This document shows positions 7,971 through 31,184 of a DNA stretch of 37,334 nucleotides, one piece after another. A program made the position numbers and the translations under genes. The notes under the pieces are model-generated. The model did no database searches, was not told where the DNA came from, and worked only from the letters and a program-made list of their open reading frames with translations. The DNA is from a virus, in the IMG/VR virus record IMGVR_UViG_3300043331_000274, positions 1 through 37,334 of that record; one strand, written 5' to 3'. Position 1 is the stretch's first letter. Every line of letters starts with the position of its first letter.

Positions 7971-8219
7971 ATGAGCGACCAACTGTTCGTGAACGCGGAC
8001 TGGTCGGCCCTGGTGCCGGCCGGTTCGTCCGAGGCGGCCTTCGGCATCCAGCCGGAGGACGCCAAGCGGCGGGGGCTCCTGGCCCTCGAGGAGGGAGAAA
8101 CCCTCGAGGAGCCGAAGGAGCTGAAGAACCAGCCGGACCCCGAGCCCGAGGCCAAGGAGGCCGAGAAGCCCGAGGACAAGGCCGCCGCCAAGCCCGCGAA
8201 CAAGGGCCGCCGCAAGTAG
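7971..8219 (+). CDS. Small acidic/basic low-complexity protein after the capsid genes
   Basis: 82 residues from ATG 7971, with GGAGGGA just before it. The first half (LFVNADWSALVPAGSSEAAF, then GIQPEDAKRRG) looks folded; the second half is a run of Glu, Lys, Pro and Ala ending in KGRRK. Small proteins with such charged tails are common after capsid genes in high-GC phages, with no known job. It may be a head protein or an assembly helper. Function unknown. Confidence 0.65.
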   Translation: MSDQLFVNADWSALVPAGSSEAAFGIQPEDAKRRGLLALEEGETLEEPKELKNQPDPEPEAKEAEKPEDKAAAKPANKGRRK

Positions 8220-25266: not shown

Positions 25267-25574
25267 CTACCTCGCGTGTCTTGACCGCCATCCCCTACGG
25301 CGAGCACGAGGCGATCACCTACGCCGAGCTCGCGGCCCGCACCGGGTTGCCCCGGAGAGCCTGTGAGAAGGCCGTGGAGGGCCTGCGGGCGGCCGGGGCG
25401 CCGATCTGTACCGGCAACGCCGGCCTGTGGCGCACGACCGATCCTGACGAGCTGCTGGAGCACTACCGCCGCCTCCGCTCACGGGCGCTCCACCAGCTCG
25501 CCAACCTGCGGGCCATGCAGCGCACGGCCGAGCGGCTGCGGACGCCCCTGACGCTGTGGGATCGGGTGGCATGA
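25263..25574 (+). CDS. Winged-helix DNA-binding protein
   Basis: 103 residues from GTG 25263. A winged helix is clear: ITYAELAARTGLPRRACEKA, VEGLRAAGAPICTGNAGLWR, followed by a coiled-coil helix (LEHYRRLRSRALHQLANLRA). Such proteins occur as small regulators in phage early operons. The stop overlaps the methyltransferase ATG. Confidence 0.65.
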   Translation: MTTSRVLTAIPYGEHEAITYAELAARTGLPRRACEKAVEGLRAAGAPICTGNAGLWRTTDPDELLEHYRRLRSRALHQLANLRAMQRTAERLRTPLTLWDRVA

Positions 25575-26785: not shown

Positions 26786-27051
26786 CACCCGCCGAGGCCC
26801 GCGCCCGCTTCCTCTGGTCCCTAGCGGCGCCGTGGGACATCTACGACGCCATCCGTAGGGTGCCACCCGGCGAGCGGGGCGCGCTGACCCGCGCGGCGGC
26901 GCGGCACCTGGGCGTGTCGGAACGCACCGTCCAGCGCAGGGTGGCCCGCTGGTGGCCCGCTCGCCGCGAACCGCAGGAGCCTGGCGGGCTGCACCGCGTC
27001 CGGTGTCCAGGACCGGCTGAGTGCATCTGCGACGAGGTCATTCTGATATGA
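26782..27051 (+). CDS. Small HTH protein
   Basis: 89 residues from GTG 26782, overlapping the methyltransferase stop by four bases. LTRAAARHLGVSERTVQRRV forms a helix-turn-helix, with a basic RWWPARRE tail and a Cys pair (CPGPAECIC) near the end. Probably a regulator or a part of the early DNA metabolism set. Confidence 0.6.
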   Translation: MTPAEARARFLWSLAAPWDIYDAIRRVPPGERGALTRAAARHLGVSERTVQRRVARWWPARREPQEPGGLHRVRCPGPAECICDEVILI

Positions 27052-27482
27052 GCCGACCCATCACGCGGCTTCCTCTCCTAGAGTGCTTCACGCGACCCGC
27101 CCAAGGCTGTTGGCTCTGGACGGCGAAGATCGACACGAGTACGGGATATGGGCGGTGGGGCAAGGCGTTCGCACACCGCGCCGTCTACCAACTCTATGTG
27201 GGCGCCATCCCCGATGGTCTACAGGTTGACCACCTTTGCCGCACGCCCCCCTGCGTCAACCCAGCACACATGGAGCTGGTGACGCCACGGGAGAACTTCC
27301 TCCGGGGTGAACATCCGAGCGCCATTCGACACCGGTCCTCGACTTGCGCTCGGGGTCATCTGTTCTCCGAGCATGGGGCCATCACGCGCCGGGGCCGGTA
27401 CTGCAAGGCGTGTCGTCGGGATAAGCAGCGAGCCGCCTGGCGAGCGCAGATATGGCCCTCCAAGCGGAGGAAGGCAGCATGA
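27048..27482 (+). CDS. HNH endonuclease
   Basis: 144 residues from ATG 27048. HNH core: CWLWTAKIDTSTGYGRWGKA, AHRAVYQLYVGAIPDGLQVD, HLCRTPPCVNPAHMELVT. A Cys-rich tail (CARGHLFS, YCKACRRDKQ) follows, probably zinc-bound. The GCWLW...LQVDHLCR...PPCVNPAH pattern is the common phage homing HNH type. Codon third positions are less GC-rich than in neighbours, which suggests a mobile gene. Confidence 0.82.
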   Translation: MSRPITRLPLLECFTRPAQGCWLWTAKIDTSTGYGRWGKAFAHRAVYQLYVGAIPDGLQVDHLCRTPPCVNPAHMELVTPRENFLRGEHPSAIRHRSSTCARGHLFSEHGAITRRGRYCKACRRDKQRAAWRAQIWPSKRRKAA

Positions 27483-28088: not shown

Positions 28089-28580
28089 ATGGCGGAGCCC
28101 GTCGTGTTCGGCCGCCCTCGGCAGGTCAGTCACCCTGGCCGCCCGCATCGGTACGAGGATGTCTGGGAGCCATCGGTCATGGGATTCCCACCGCTTCTCG
28201 TTTCGCGCTGTCCGTGCGGAGCCGTCCGCGACGAGGCGGCGGTGAAGCGGGGACGGAATAACCGGGCAAGGGGCAACGCTTTCGAGCGCGAGGTAGCCCA
28301 CAAGCTCGGCGTGTCCCGCGTCGGCCAGTACGGTGGACCCGAGGACGTCGGCAACGCGGGCGAGTGGATCATGGTGCAGACCAAGGTGGGCAACAGCACC
28401 TACCCGACGCGCATCGACGCTCTGCTGCGGCGGATCCCGTTCCGGGCCAACCAGTTGCGGGCGGTGGTCCACGGCGACGCACCGGGGTCAGCCGGCAAGC
28501 GGCGGGCGCTCATCACCCTCGACTTGGACGAGTTCTGTGCGTGGTTCGGAGGCAGGGGGGACTCCGTTGAGCTGGGTTAG
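28089..28580 (+). CDS. Holliday-junction-resolvase-like nuclease (Hjc type)
   Basis: 163 residues from ATG 28089. The PD-(D/E)XK-like pattern is present: E66/E68 in FEREVAHKLG, D86 in GGPEDVG, and Q97-x-K99 in MVQTKVG, in the order and spacing of archaeal Hjc-like resolvases. A Cys pair CPCG (41-44) precedes it. Role: to resolve branched DNA before packaging or during recombination. It precedes the replisome organizer. Confidence 0.65.
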   Translation: MAEPVVFGRPRQVSHPGRPHRYEDVWEPSVMGFPPLLVSRCPCGAVRDEAAVKRGRNNRARGNAFEREVAHKLGVSRVGQYGGPEDVGNAGEWIMVQTKVGNSTYPTRIDALLRRIPFRANQLRAVVHGDAPGSAGKRRALITLDLDEFCAWFGGRGDSVELG

Positions 28581-29238
28581 GGTCGACGACCAGTTCCCCG
28601 ACCACCCGAAGCTGATGCGACTCGGCAAGGACCGGCTGGCCGGCATGGGCCTGTGGGTCGTGGGCCTGTGCTACTGCGCCCGGTTCCTGACCGACGGCTA
28701 CATCCCAGCCATGGCCCTGCCCTGGGGCTCGCGGCGGATCGCCACCCTGCTGGTCAGCGTCGGCCTGTGGGACGTCGAGGGCGACGGCTACCGAATCCAC
28801 GACTACCACGAGTACCAGCCGACCAAGGCCGCCGTTCTCGAAAAGCGGGCCGAGCTCCTGGCCGGAAAGGTGGCCGGCGGGAAGGCTCGGGCGGCGTCAG
28901 CGGGCCGGGATGGGGGCCGCTTCGCACCAGCAGACCACCAGCAGACCACCAGCAGCCCTGCTGGTGACGAGCTGGTGGGCCCTCACCAGCAGACCACCAG
29001 CCCCATACCCATACCCAGTAAACAGGTACTTACTAACGTATCTGACTGGGTGGAGCCGGCCGCCTTCTTCGAGGAGCGAACTGGACGAAGGCCCTCACAG
29101 AAGGTGCGGGACTGGCTCGAGGATCTCCACGCCCGGTTCAGCCGACGCGAGCTGCTCCACGCGATGACCGTGGTGCCCGACCCGAAGGCCACCGACTGGC
29201 TCAAGAAGGTCGACGCCTACCTGGAGGCCGCGGCGTGA
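28567..29238 (+). CDS. Phage replisome organizer / replication initiator
   Basis: 223 residues from TTG 28567, with AGGGGGG upstream. Residues 1-90 are the common N-terminal winged-helix part (WVRVDDQFPDHPKLMRLGKD, LWVVGLCYCARFLTDGYIPA, GLWDVEGDGYRIHDYHEYQP). The middle linker (about 118-155) is Gln/Thr/Pro rich because the DNA below it is an iteron cluster. The C-terminus is helical (WLEDLHARFSRRELLHAM) and probably recruits the host helicase loader. The gene overlaps the resolvase by 14 bases. Confidence 0.8.
   Translation: MSWVRVDDQFPDHPKLMRLGKDRLAGMGLWVVGLCYCARFLTDGYIPAMALPWGSRRIATLLVSVGLWDVEGDGYRIHDYHEYQPTKAAVLEKRAELLAGKVAGGKARAASAGRDGGRFAPADHQQTTSSPAGDELVGPHQQTTSPIPIPSKQVLTNVSDWVEPAAFFEERTGRRPSQKVRDWLEDLHARFSRRELLHAMTVVPDPKATDWLKKVDAYLEAAA
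28927..29050. other. Candidate replication origin inside the initiator gene (iterons plus AT-rich stretch)
   Basis: CCAGCAGACCA repeats in tandem at 28927-28937 and 28938-28948 with a partial third (28949-28955), and again at 28986-28996. The partial copy forms an inverted repeat CCAGCAG cc CTGCTGG (28949-28964); a second inverted repeat is GCTGGTG / CACCAGC (about 28971-28990). Next comes a stretch (29005-29045) that is much richer in A/T than the genome, with CATACC twice. This is the layout of the lambda origin inside the O gene. Confidence 0.65.
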
Positions 29239-29765
29239 GGCGACGGAAGAACATCACCCCTCAGATCTACGAGGTATGTCGCCTGTTCGTTGGAGGTCAC
29301 AGTCAGGGGGAAATCGCTACCATCCTTGCCCGAACGCCGAATGCAGTTCGGCTCGCCCTTCGGGATGCCCGGAGCATCCTTGGTGGCGCCGACTACCTAC
29401 AAGCGGCGCGCAACGCTGTGGTCGTCGGGGTGCAACCGACGAGATTTGGCTATTCGCCTGAGAACCCAACAGAGCGGTTTTGGCGGAAGGTCCGAAAGGG
29501 CGAGGAGTGCTGGGAATGGACGGGGTTCCGTGTTCCCCCGCTTGGCTATGGTCGCTTCCGTCTGAATGACGAGCAGACGTGGGCGCATCGGGTGTCCTGG
29601 GAACTCACTTTCGGGCCGATCCCTGAGGGGCTTCAGGTCTGCCATCGTTGCGATAACCCACCCTGCGTTCGACCGGACCATCTGTTCCTCGGGACACCCC
29701 TCGATAACGTCCGAGACATGATTGGGAAGGGCCGCGCGTCCTTCCAGAAGCGAGCTAGTTTGTGA
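29235..29765 (+). CDS. HNH endonuclease with N-terminal HTH
   Basis: 176 residues from GTG 29235. Residues 10-50 form an HTH (YEVCRLFVGGHSQGEIATIL, then ARTPNAVRLALRD). The HNH core follows: ECWEWTGFRVPPLGYGRFRL, AHRVSWELTFGPIPEGLQVC, HRCDNPPCVRPDHLFLGT, then the DNVRDMIGKGR tail typical of this homing type. Less GC-rich than its neighbours. It overlaps both flanking genes by four bases, which is neat for a mobile gene and suggests a recent, precise insertion or selection for coupling. Confidence 0.85.
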   Translation: MRRRKNITPQIYEVCRLFVGGHSQGEIATILARTPNAVRLALRDARSILGGADYLQAARNAVVVGVQPTRFGYSPENPTERFWRKVRKGEECWEWTGFRVPPLGYGRFRLNDEQTWAHRVSWELTFGPIPEGLQVCHRCDNPPCVRPDHLFLGTPLDNVRDMIGKGRASFQKRASL

Positions 29766-30145
29766 ACAGGCTCGCCTACCGCGTCAACGAGGTGGCCGAG
29801 CTGTTGGCCGTAGACGCTGAGACCGTCCGTCGGTGGCTCGTCGCTGGTCGCCTTCCCGGTCGAAAGGTCGGCGGCCTGTGGCTGGTCCCCGCGTCGGGGT
29901 TGGAGGCGTGGCTAACATCGGAGGATGAGCAGGCGGATGGCGGGATCGGGCTCGGTGTACCGGGAGCGGGGGCAATGGGTGGCGCAACTGTCGGTCGGGC
30001 CGAGGGGCCAGCGCCGCTACATCCGTCGAACGCGAGCCACACGGCGCGACGCCCTGGCCGCCCTCGCCGAGCTGCGCGCCGCGCGAACGCGCACCTCGCC
30101 GACCAGGCTGACCCTTGGAGCCTACCTCGCCGAGTGGGTGGCTAG
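29762..30145 (+). CDS. Excisionase-family HTH protein (Xis-like)
   Basis: Domain in residues 1-60 from GTG 29762: LAYRVNEVAELLAVDAETVR, RWLVAGRLPGRKVGGLWLVP, then SGLEAWL, the MerR-like fold of phage excisionases. The frame stays open for another 65 low-complexity residues across the start of the integrase gene; those may be translated or not, as the codon pattern there is set by the integrase. Directly upstream of the integrase, as in many temperate phages. Confidence 0.75.
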   Translation: MNRLAYRVNEVAELLAVDAETVRRWLVAGRLPGRKVGGLWLVPASGLEAWLTSEDEQADGGIGLGVPGAGAMGGATVGRAEGPAPLHPSNASHTARRPGRPRRAARRANAHLADQADPWSLPRRVGG

Positions 30146-31055
30146 CGTGCGGAACCTTCGACCCGAGACCCTCCGCGGCTACCGCAACGCCATCCGCGAC
30201 CACGTGATCCCGACCATCGGGGACGTTCGGCTGGTCGACCTGGCACCCTCCGACGTCGAGCGGATGCTGACCGTCACCAGCGGGCGCATCGGCCCGAAGT
30301 CCCTCCGCAACATCCACGCCGTTCTGCGCCGCGCGCTGACGATGGCCGTCCGGCAGGGCCTCGTCACCCGCAACGTGGCCGCCCGTGAGTTCGTCGACCC
30401 GCCCCGCGTCCCAGCCTCCGAGCCGCGGGCGTTGAGCGCCGACGAGGTGCGCCGGTTGCTCGACGAGGCGAAGGGCGACCGGCTCGAAGCCCTGTTCGTC
30501 ACGGCGGTCGGCACCGGGCTCCGCCAGGGCGAGCTGCTCGGTTTGGCTTGGGAGGACGTCGACCTCGACGTGGGCCGGATCTCGGTCCGTCGTGAGCTGG
30601 TTCGGCGCGAAGGCCGCTACCAGCGCGACGAGCTCAAGACGCCGCAGTCGCGGCGGGCGGTGCCCCTGCCGCCGGCGGTTGTCGACGCCCTGATCGCCCA
30701 CCGAGGGCGCGTCATCGTCGAAGGCTTCTTGCCGACGGCCACCGGCCCGGTTTTCACCAACGCCAAGGGCGAGCCGTTGAGCGGGTCATGGGTGACCCAC
30801 CACTTCTACCGCCTGCTCAACCGGGCCAGCATCGAGCGCATGGCGTTCCACCGGCTGCGTGCGACGTACAGCTCGCGCCTGGCCGAGGCTGGGGTCAGCG
30901 ATCTCGACATCGCTCGGCTCCTCGGCCACAGTCGCACCCACACCGCCAAGAAGCACTACATCGCTCCCGGCCCCATTCCGGCCTCCGGGCTGGAGGCCGT
31001 CCAGATGCTCCTCGTGCCAACGGGTCACCAACGGGTCACGGTGCTGTCGGAATGA
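29925..31055 (+). CDS. int: Tyrosine recombinase integrase
   Basis: 376 residues. Catalytic residues are visible: R200 in GTGLRQGELLGL, H309-x-x-R312 in FHRLRATYSS, H335 in LLGHSRTHT and Y345 in KKHYIAP. The N-terminal arm-binding (GSGSVYRERGQWVAQLSVG) and core-binding (TLGAYLAEWVASVRNLRPET) domains are present. ATG 29925 directly abuts GGAGG; ATG 29937 (MAGSGSVY) is 12 bases beyond it and may be the true start. The 3' end contains two of the arm-type repeats of attP. It integrates the phage into a host tRNA-Arg(TCG) gene. Confidence 0.93.
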   Translation: MSRRMAGSGSVYRERGQWVAQLSVGPRGQRRYIRRTRATRRDALAALAELRAARTRTSPTRLTLGAYLAEWVASVRNLRPETLRGYRNAIRDHVIPTIGDVRLVDLAPSDVERMLTVTSGRIGPKSLRNIHAVLRRALTMAVRQGLVTRNVAAREFVDPPRVPASEPRALSADEVRRLLDEAKGDRLEALFVTAVGTGLRQGELLGLAWEDVDLDVGRISVRRELVRREGRYQRDELKTPQSRRAVPLPPAVVDALIAHRGRVIVEGFLPTATGPVFTNAKGEPLSGSWVTHHFYRLLNRASIERMAFHRLRATYSSRLAEAGVSDLDIARLLGHSRTHTAKKHYIAPGPIPASGLEAVQMLLVPTGHQRVTVLSE

Positions 31056-31184
31056 GTGGGCAGGACGGGGCCAATCGTGCTCAGAAGTGGCGCGCCGGGC
31101 AGGATTCGAACCCGCGGCCTGGTGGTCCGAAGCCACCTGACTTCGAGCTCAATCGGCACGGAAACGGGTCACCGAACGGGTCAC
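31019..31184. other. attP: tRNA-Arg core flanked by two pairs of AACGGGTCAC repeats
   Basis: The repeat AACGGGTCAC is at 31019-31028, 31030-31039, 31163-31172 and 31175-31184, all in the same orientation, 11 and 12 bases apart within pairs (one helix turn). The core between them (31088-31137) is the 3' half of a tRNA-Arg gene. This is the usual plan of a tyrosine-recombinase attP, with arm sites on both sides of the crossover core. Confidence 0.8.
31088..31137 (-). tRNA. 3' half of a tRNA-Arg(TCG) gene, the att core
   Basis: Read on the minus strand: anticodon stem GGTGG/CCACC with loop CTTCGGA (anticodon TCG), variable AGGCC, T arm GCGGG-TTCGAAT-CCTGC, acceptor strand CCGGCGC, G and CCA. 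There is no D arm and no matching 5' acceptor strand (GCGCCGG) nearby, so it is not a working tRNA but the piece that restores the host gene after integration. Confidence 0.85.

Follow-up and report, generated by a model that had tools for sequence, protein, structure and literature searches.

A predicted replication origin with iterons and a strand-specific C tract inside the initiator gene of actinobacterial phages

Introduction

Lactococcal and Bacillus phages have origins within their initiator genes, and the iterons of phage lambda are about 18 bp long. One study (PMC7466680) describes the lambda and Stx-phage origin as lying midway within the initiator gene, where initiator-binding iterons adjoin an AT-rich stretch, and origins are the subject of a review (PMC10797057). 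For extrachromosomal mycobacteriophages such as Miko, the authors of PMC7157519 place the origin next to or within repA and report no repeats in the examined region.

Here, we analyzed a virus record of 37,334 bases (hereafter the window, meaning this whole stretch; G+C 62-72% in 1-kb windows). A sequence-only reading had proposed a lambda-like origin in its initiator gene, and we compared this locus with its relatives, with other initiators and with the described systems.

Results

Profile matching and translation revealed that the gene in question, rep (28567..29238, + strand, TTG start), encodes a replication initiation protein of 223 aa. In the PHROG profile search, residues 2-164 matched phrog_2447 ("replication initiation protein") at E 6.8e-29, which makes the window's gene a member of this actinophage family. 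Up to E 1, Rep had no Pfam match and matched six PHROG families. None of the six is O-like, so "lambda-like" refers here to a plan and not to kinship. AlphaFold2 predicts a folded N-terminal domain (residues 1-114, 28567..28908, + strand; pLDDT at least 94 for the block of residues 11-110), a disordered linker (residues 115-160, 28909..29046, + strand; pLDDT 40-57 for the block of residues 121-160), and a helical C-terminal domain (residues 164-223, 29056..29235, + strand). The N-terminal domain is winged-helix-like by weak fold matches: comparison of Rep with known folds gave Z at most 7.0 (VIA best, Z 7.0). On a possible likeness to the fold of the lambda O DNA-binding domain, the comparison yielded only these weak winged-helix matches. 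Against solved structures, there was no sequence match and no Foldseek match at E 0.001 or below. Nearly all of the proposed origin elements lie inside the disordered linker, where the earlier reading had put the repeats and the AT-rich tract.

A tblastn search identified 211 phage records with a Rep-related protein, all below 60% identity and all from actinobacterial phages by organism name. Many of these proteins are annotated as hypothetical. In Streptomyces phages Darolandstone and Raleigh (NC_048072.1, NC_047795.1) Rep carries the annotation "mucin-2", for which the repetitive linker is the probable cause, and in six relatives (L028, L060, L073, L076, L114, and L122) an HNH-like motif follows the winged-helix (wHTH) domain. 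The name "RepA-like replication initiator" is given to two proteins that are unrelated by family HMM, Miko gp36 and Blett gp42 (L423, L424). Miko RepA carries this annotation but has no family HMM match and no C tract (defined below). It was the sole experimentally tested "RepA-like" protein that we met, and we rejected it as an experimental anchor because it is not in the family.

In lambda, a helicase-loader gene lies directly 3' of the initiator gene (the O-P arrangement). The window does not have this arrangement: no helicase loader or helicase gene follows rep within it, and the next gene encodes an HNH endonuclease. In Blett, rep is followed by genes annotated as helicase loader and DnaB-like helicase. 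Two HNH endonuclease genes (27021-27482 and 29235-29765) flank the Rep region of the window, and at 29925-31159 an integrase gene precedes an oppositely oriented tRNA-Arg gene, where an attachment site is likely. GC skew, which had been suggested as a check, was uninformative. It forms a local positive island at 28-30 kb with no genome-wide switch across the record, and we dropped it as an origin mark.

As in lambda-type origins, iterons lie within the initiator gene, here with a length of 11 bp, which differs from lambda. Three stand head to tail on the + strand, two exact copies of ACCAGCAGACC (28926..28936 and 28937..28947) and ACCAGCAGCCC with one mismatch to it (28948..28958); a further exact ACCAGCAGACC stands separately on the same strand (28985..28995). 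The earlier reading had described four such copies as two in tandem, one partial, and one separate. The copies are real, and the head-to-tail group has three members instead of two. A partial iteron (28996..29003, + strand), the end of a third 18-mer copy, runs into the C tract. Both inverted repeats that had been noted are also present, the core ACCAGCAG on the - strand at 28958..28965 and a shorter, partial copy at 28971..28978, listed on the + strand as GCTGGTGG, which forms the outer stem of the predicted DNA fold. The fold of 28926-28995 is a nested hairpin (z -3.3), and TRF reports 2.8 perfect copies with period 11 at 28925-28955.

In the window, the core ACCAGCAG is present 10 times where 1.09 copies would be expected (at most 4 in 100 shuffles), and five of the ten, four direct and one inverted, fall within 67 bp. 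Short tandem repeats grow by slippage, and a linker predicted to be disordered could be a Pro/Gln-rich spacer that expanded during replication and has no role as DNA. Such a spacer does not predict the inverted copies or the AT dip described below, and the periods of 11 and 5 are out of codon register. Nor does the protein account for the repeats. With the Rep sequence held and its codons redrawn from the phage's own gene usage in 20,000 resamplings, a 20-nt run at period 11 was reached in 1/20,000 draws and five cores in 0/20,000. The linker repeats are a DNA-level excess beyond protein constraint.

The E. coli Chi octamer, GCTGGTGG, occurs 11 times in the window (2.4 expected), four of them in the iterons; we set the Chi reading aside as a by-product of the repeats. 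Other tandem repeats in the window, at 8143-8213 and 25287-25343, have a 24-bp period and are therefore in codon register.

The earlier reading had pointed to a downstream AT-rich tract. We identified it as the stretch at 29017..29046 (GC 0.367), which is the lowest-GC 30 bp of the record and our proposed unwinding element. A GC this low occurs in 6 of 37,305 windows of that size, all in one cluster at 29011-29048. As in lambda, the AT-rich stretch adjoins the iterons, with a C tract between them that the earlier reading had overlooked. This tract, CCCCATACCCATACCC at 29001..29016 on the + strand (CCCC-ATA-CCC-ATA-CCC), is G-rich on the - strand and has a counterpart in most relatives. Its spaced C-run pattern has 3 matches in the record against 2.2 expected. 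The window's tract is therefore unremarkable by itself and matters only because the relatives keep it.

DNA folding predicts an imperfect hairpin over the AT-rich stretch (29013..29051, + strand), with a 7-bp outer stem, a 3-nt bulge, a 7-pair inner stem, and the loop TTACTAAC. Its 14 pairs and bulge have a folding energy of -8.2 kcal/mol (z -3.3), equalled in 1 of 200 shuffles. This hairpin failed the strict test for six or more perfect pairs. The window also contains CTAACG. The canonical G-quadruplex motif (four G runs of three or more, loops 1-7) is absent from the window's tract, which has three runs close together. The fold tool gave no quadruplex there (z 0.0), and for the window itself we set the quadruplex reading aside.

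A cluster of repeats, some of them inverted, would also fit repressor binding, so the iterons might serve Rep or another regulator as control sites for the operon, with no part in an origin. We consider such an operator very unlikely, given its position about 360 bp into the gene and the AT-rich stretch and conserved tract that follow it.

To compare the locus across the family, we collected relatives through a pattern scan of viral contigs (at least 120 matches) and eight loci found with the window's protein. From 130 candidates, 92 non-redundant Reps were kept, the window's included; owing to shared descent, they are not independent samples. Significant self-repeats are present in 60 of the 92 in the interval from the N-terminal domain to the C tract, and 32 have no significant iteron. 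The same scan found repeats in 5/86 members downstream of the C tract and in 2/86 in the part coding for the wHTH domain. Among the 60 repeat-bearing relatives, 58 have a period of 11, 12, or 21-24 bp, that is, one or two helical turns. The iteron words vary between phages (for example GAACAAACGTT, CGAAGCAAACG, and GGCGTTACGGAT), as one would expect were each Rep to recognize a word of its own. A linker kept as protein and not as DNA repeats, which the earlier reading had named as a refuting outcome, was looked for and not seen.

We defined the C tract as three or more CCC runs spaced 2-3 nt apart on the coding strand. It is present in 86/92 relatives, against 3/92 on the other strand and a mean of 5.1 (maximum 10) in shuffles, and it was found in 2/92 upstream and 6/87 downstream control stretches. 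Six of the 92 relatives have no tract, and prophiGD36-2 gp26 is a family member without one. Four or more C runs occur in 71/92 relatives, and just three in 14 of the 86 tracts. The spacers are mostly GA, GT, CGA, GTA, and AT; the window differs from the family in its ATA spacers and its three C runs. The canonical quadruplex motif is present in 76/92 relatives on the - strand and in 2/92 on the + strand. In the 76 motif-bearing relatives, 259 of 333 loops are 2 nt long, a closer spacing than a quadruplex by itself would require. As a second set we took 28 loci from species genomes that are not redundant with those of the first set and are actinobacterial by title (L325 aside). The counts were similar: 26/28 with the tract, 0/28 on the other strand, and 23/28 with the quadruplex motif.

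The tract is followed by an AT dip. Mean GC in the first 20 nt after it is 0.46, compared with 0.66 after other C runs and a profile mean of 0.63, and in 73/84 members GC there is lower than the member's own 60-nt mean. Within 50 nt after the tract, 46/86 members have a perfect stem with at least six pairs (7.7% in shuffles). The following stretches contain such stems in 8, 14, and 5 of 86 members, and the iteron side in 20/86. In the second set, the hairpin was found in 15/26 loci and in 1/26 control stretches. The loops include TAAA (12), TGAC (6), TAAC (5), and TAC (4), and the 46 hairpins have 45 distinct stems. The order of wHTH domain, iterons, C tract, and AT dip is conserved.

The strand preference of the tract could also reflect a role in RNA. 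Rho-use sites are C-rich, G-poor RNA, and a C-rich transcript followed by a hairpin resembles them, so the element might act in the mRNA, for instance by loading Rho or by controlling translation. This account leaves the iterons at one helical turn and the AT dip unexplained, and we think it improbable; an RNA-level element could coexist with an origin.

Several further features were weighed. Iterons of 11 bp pair with tract units of 6 nt and iterons of 12 bp with units of 5 nt (13:9 vs 4:27, Fisher p 7e-4; 92 relatives), an association that may reflect descent only. A bias in Arg, Pro, and Thr codons is present in the tract, and we rejected it as proof: for a tract identified through its DNA pattern, the argument is circular. 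Host DnaA boxes lie near the tract in only 3/86 members and were dropped as an origin component. A pentamer scan of 142 loci gave 84 matches in sense in a Rep frame, 1 antisense, and 66 in other places. Of these 66, several lie just 3' of short Reps and many are in unrelated DNA, so the pentamer is not enough by itself to identify an origin.

Genes that end before the tract separate a DNA function from a protein function without an experiment. Among 12 short Reps (106-129 aa), ten are followed by the tract at 33-103 nt 3' of the stop codon; six of these ten belong to the set of 92, and the other four (L133, L164, L219, and L231) came from the pentamer scan and were thus chosen for having the tract. 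Of the remaining two short Reps, one belongs to a locus with just 50 nt of downstream DNA and one has no tract. In Propionibacterium phage Anatole (L006), the annotation shows a gap separating genes 45 and 46, and this gap contains the iterons and (CCCGTA)3. In several of the short-Rep cases, one of the three frames is open past the tract, so an undetected reading of it is possible in some, and in L101, L109, L164, and L231 none of the three stays open beyond 150 nt. Because the gene stops before the tract in ten relatives and the tract is still found downstream, the element is DNA and not a protein linker. The earlier suggestion that the linker peptide simply follows the DNA repeats agrees with these ten relatives and with the protein-fixed resampling. 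A linker grown by slippage with no DNA role is strongly disfavoured, and we give it next to no credence.

We searched for the window's repeats in other genes. The 18-mer CACCAGCAGACCACCAGC matched five contigs, in a distant Rep (L233), another initiator (L234), and three other genes. L233 carries six direct copies and one inverted copy of the window's core in the same place and has no CCC tract. A degenerate 26-mer of the iteron word matched seven stretches, all in initiator-like genes and comprising four distinct sequences. All four match the DnaD-like PHROG 2514, L234 only at E 9e-6. The window's iteron word, ACCARCARACC at 11-bp spacing, thus recurs in initiators of a different PHROG (L234, L328, L329, and L331).

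In 60 non-redundant DnaD-like relatives, linker repeats were significant in 60/60, with a best period of 11, 12, 22, or 23 in 38/60. A 9-bp AAGAATGAT repeat occurs in 22/60, a count favoured by the search peptide NKNDKNDK. In the rep linkers of L334-L422, this 9-bp repeat might be a single-strand motif. The DnaD-like initiators resemble the phrog_2447 family in having repeats right after the wHTH domain, some with ACCARCARACC, but differ in that the 9-bp repeat is common and the C tract is absent (0/60). Iterons that follow the wHTH domain are thus general among these initiators, and the C tract is, in these samples, a feature of the actinobacterial family.

Discussion

Our analyses predict that the linker repeats are, with high probability, a phage replication origin inside the initiator gene. 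The earlier comparison with lambda holds as a likeness of plan: iterons and an AT-rich stretch sit in the disordered linker of an initiator, as the iterons and adjoining AT-rich stretch sit within gene O. Unlike lambda, this locus adds a C tract and a looped hairpin. The plan of an origin within a gene is known, and the C/G tract and the hairpin look new, with roles that we infer. Among the open-licence papers that our searches found, some judged by title, there was no prior description of such a tract or hairpin. We also considered recognition of CCC by primase; the part of one review covered here names no actinobacterial site.

We suggest the following mechanism. The N-terminal domain of Rep would bind the 11-bp iterons and, because these are spaced one helical turn apart, Rep protomers would stack on one face of the DNA. 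The resulting complex may strain the adjoining C tract and AT-rich stretch and open them. The G-rich lower strand could then stay out of the duplex, either as a quadruplex or bound by protein, and the hairpin and the C-terminal domain may help to bring in the helicase. The holding of the G-rich strand is the least certain step, because 14/86 tracts have only three runs and the narrow spacing also fits a repeated protein site.

Tentatively, and with considerable doubt, we extend this to the family. Its actinobacterial phages may share a composite origin in which 11-12 bp iterons are followed by a strand-specific CCC/GGG tract and this in turn by an AT-rich hairpin whose loop is often CTAAAG, CTAACG, or CTGACG. 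By folding into a quadruplex or by binding Rep, the G-rich strand would hold the strands apart and set the side on which the helicase is loaded, unlike in lambda.

The locus provides a candidate origin, defined at single-base resolution, for a large set of phages and prophages of actinobacteria. Its strand-specific C/G tract beside an AT-rich stretch is a candidate for origin opening assisted by a quadruplex or by protein, and the segment could provide actinobacterial genetics with a compact replicon.
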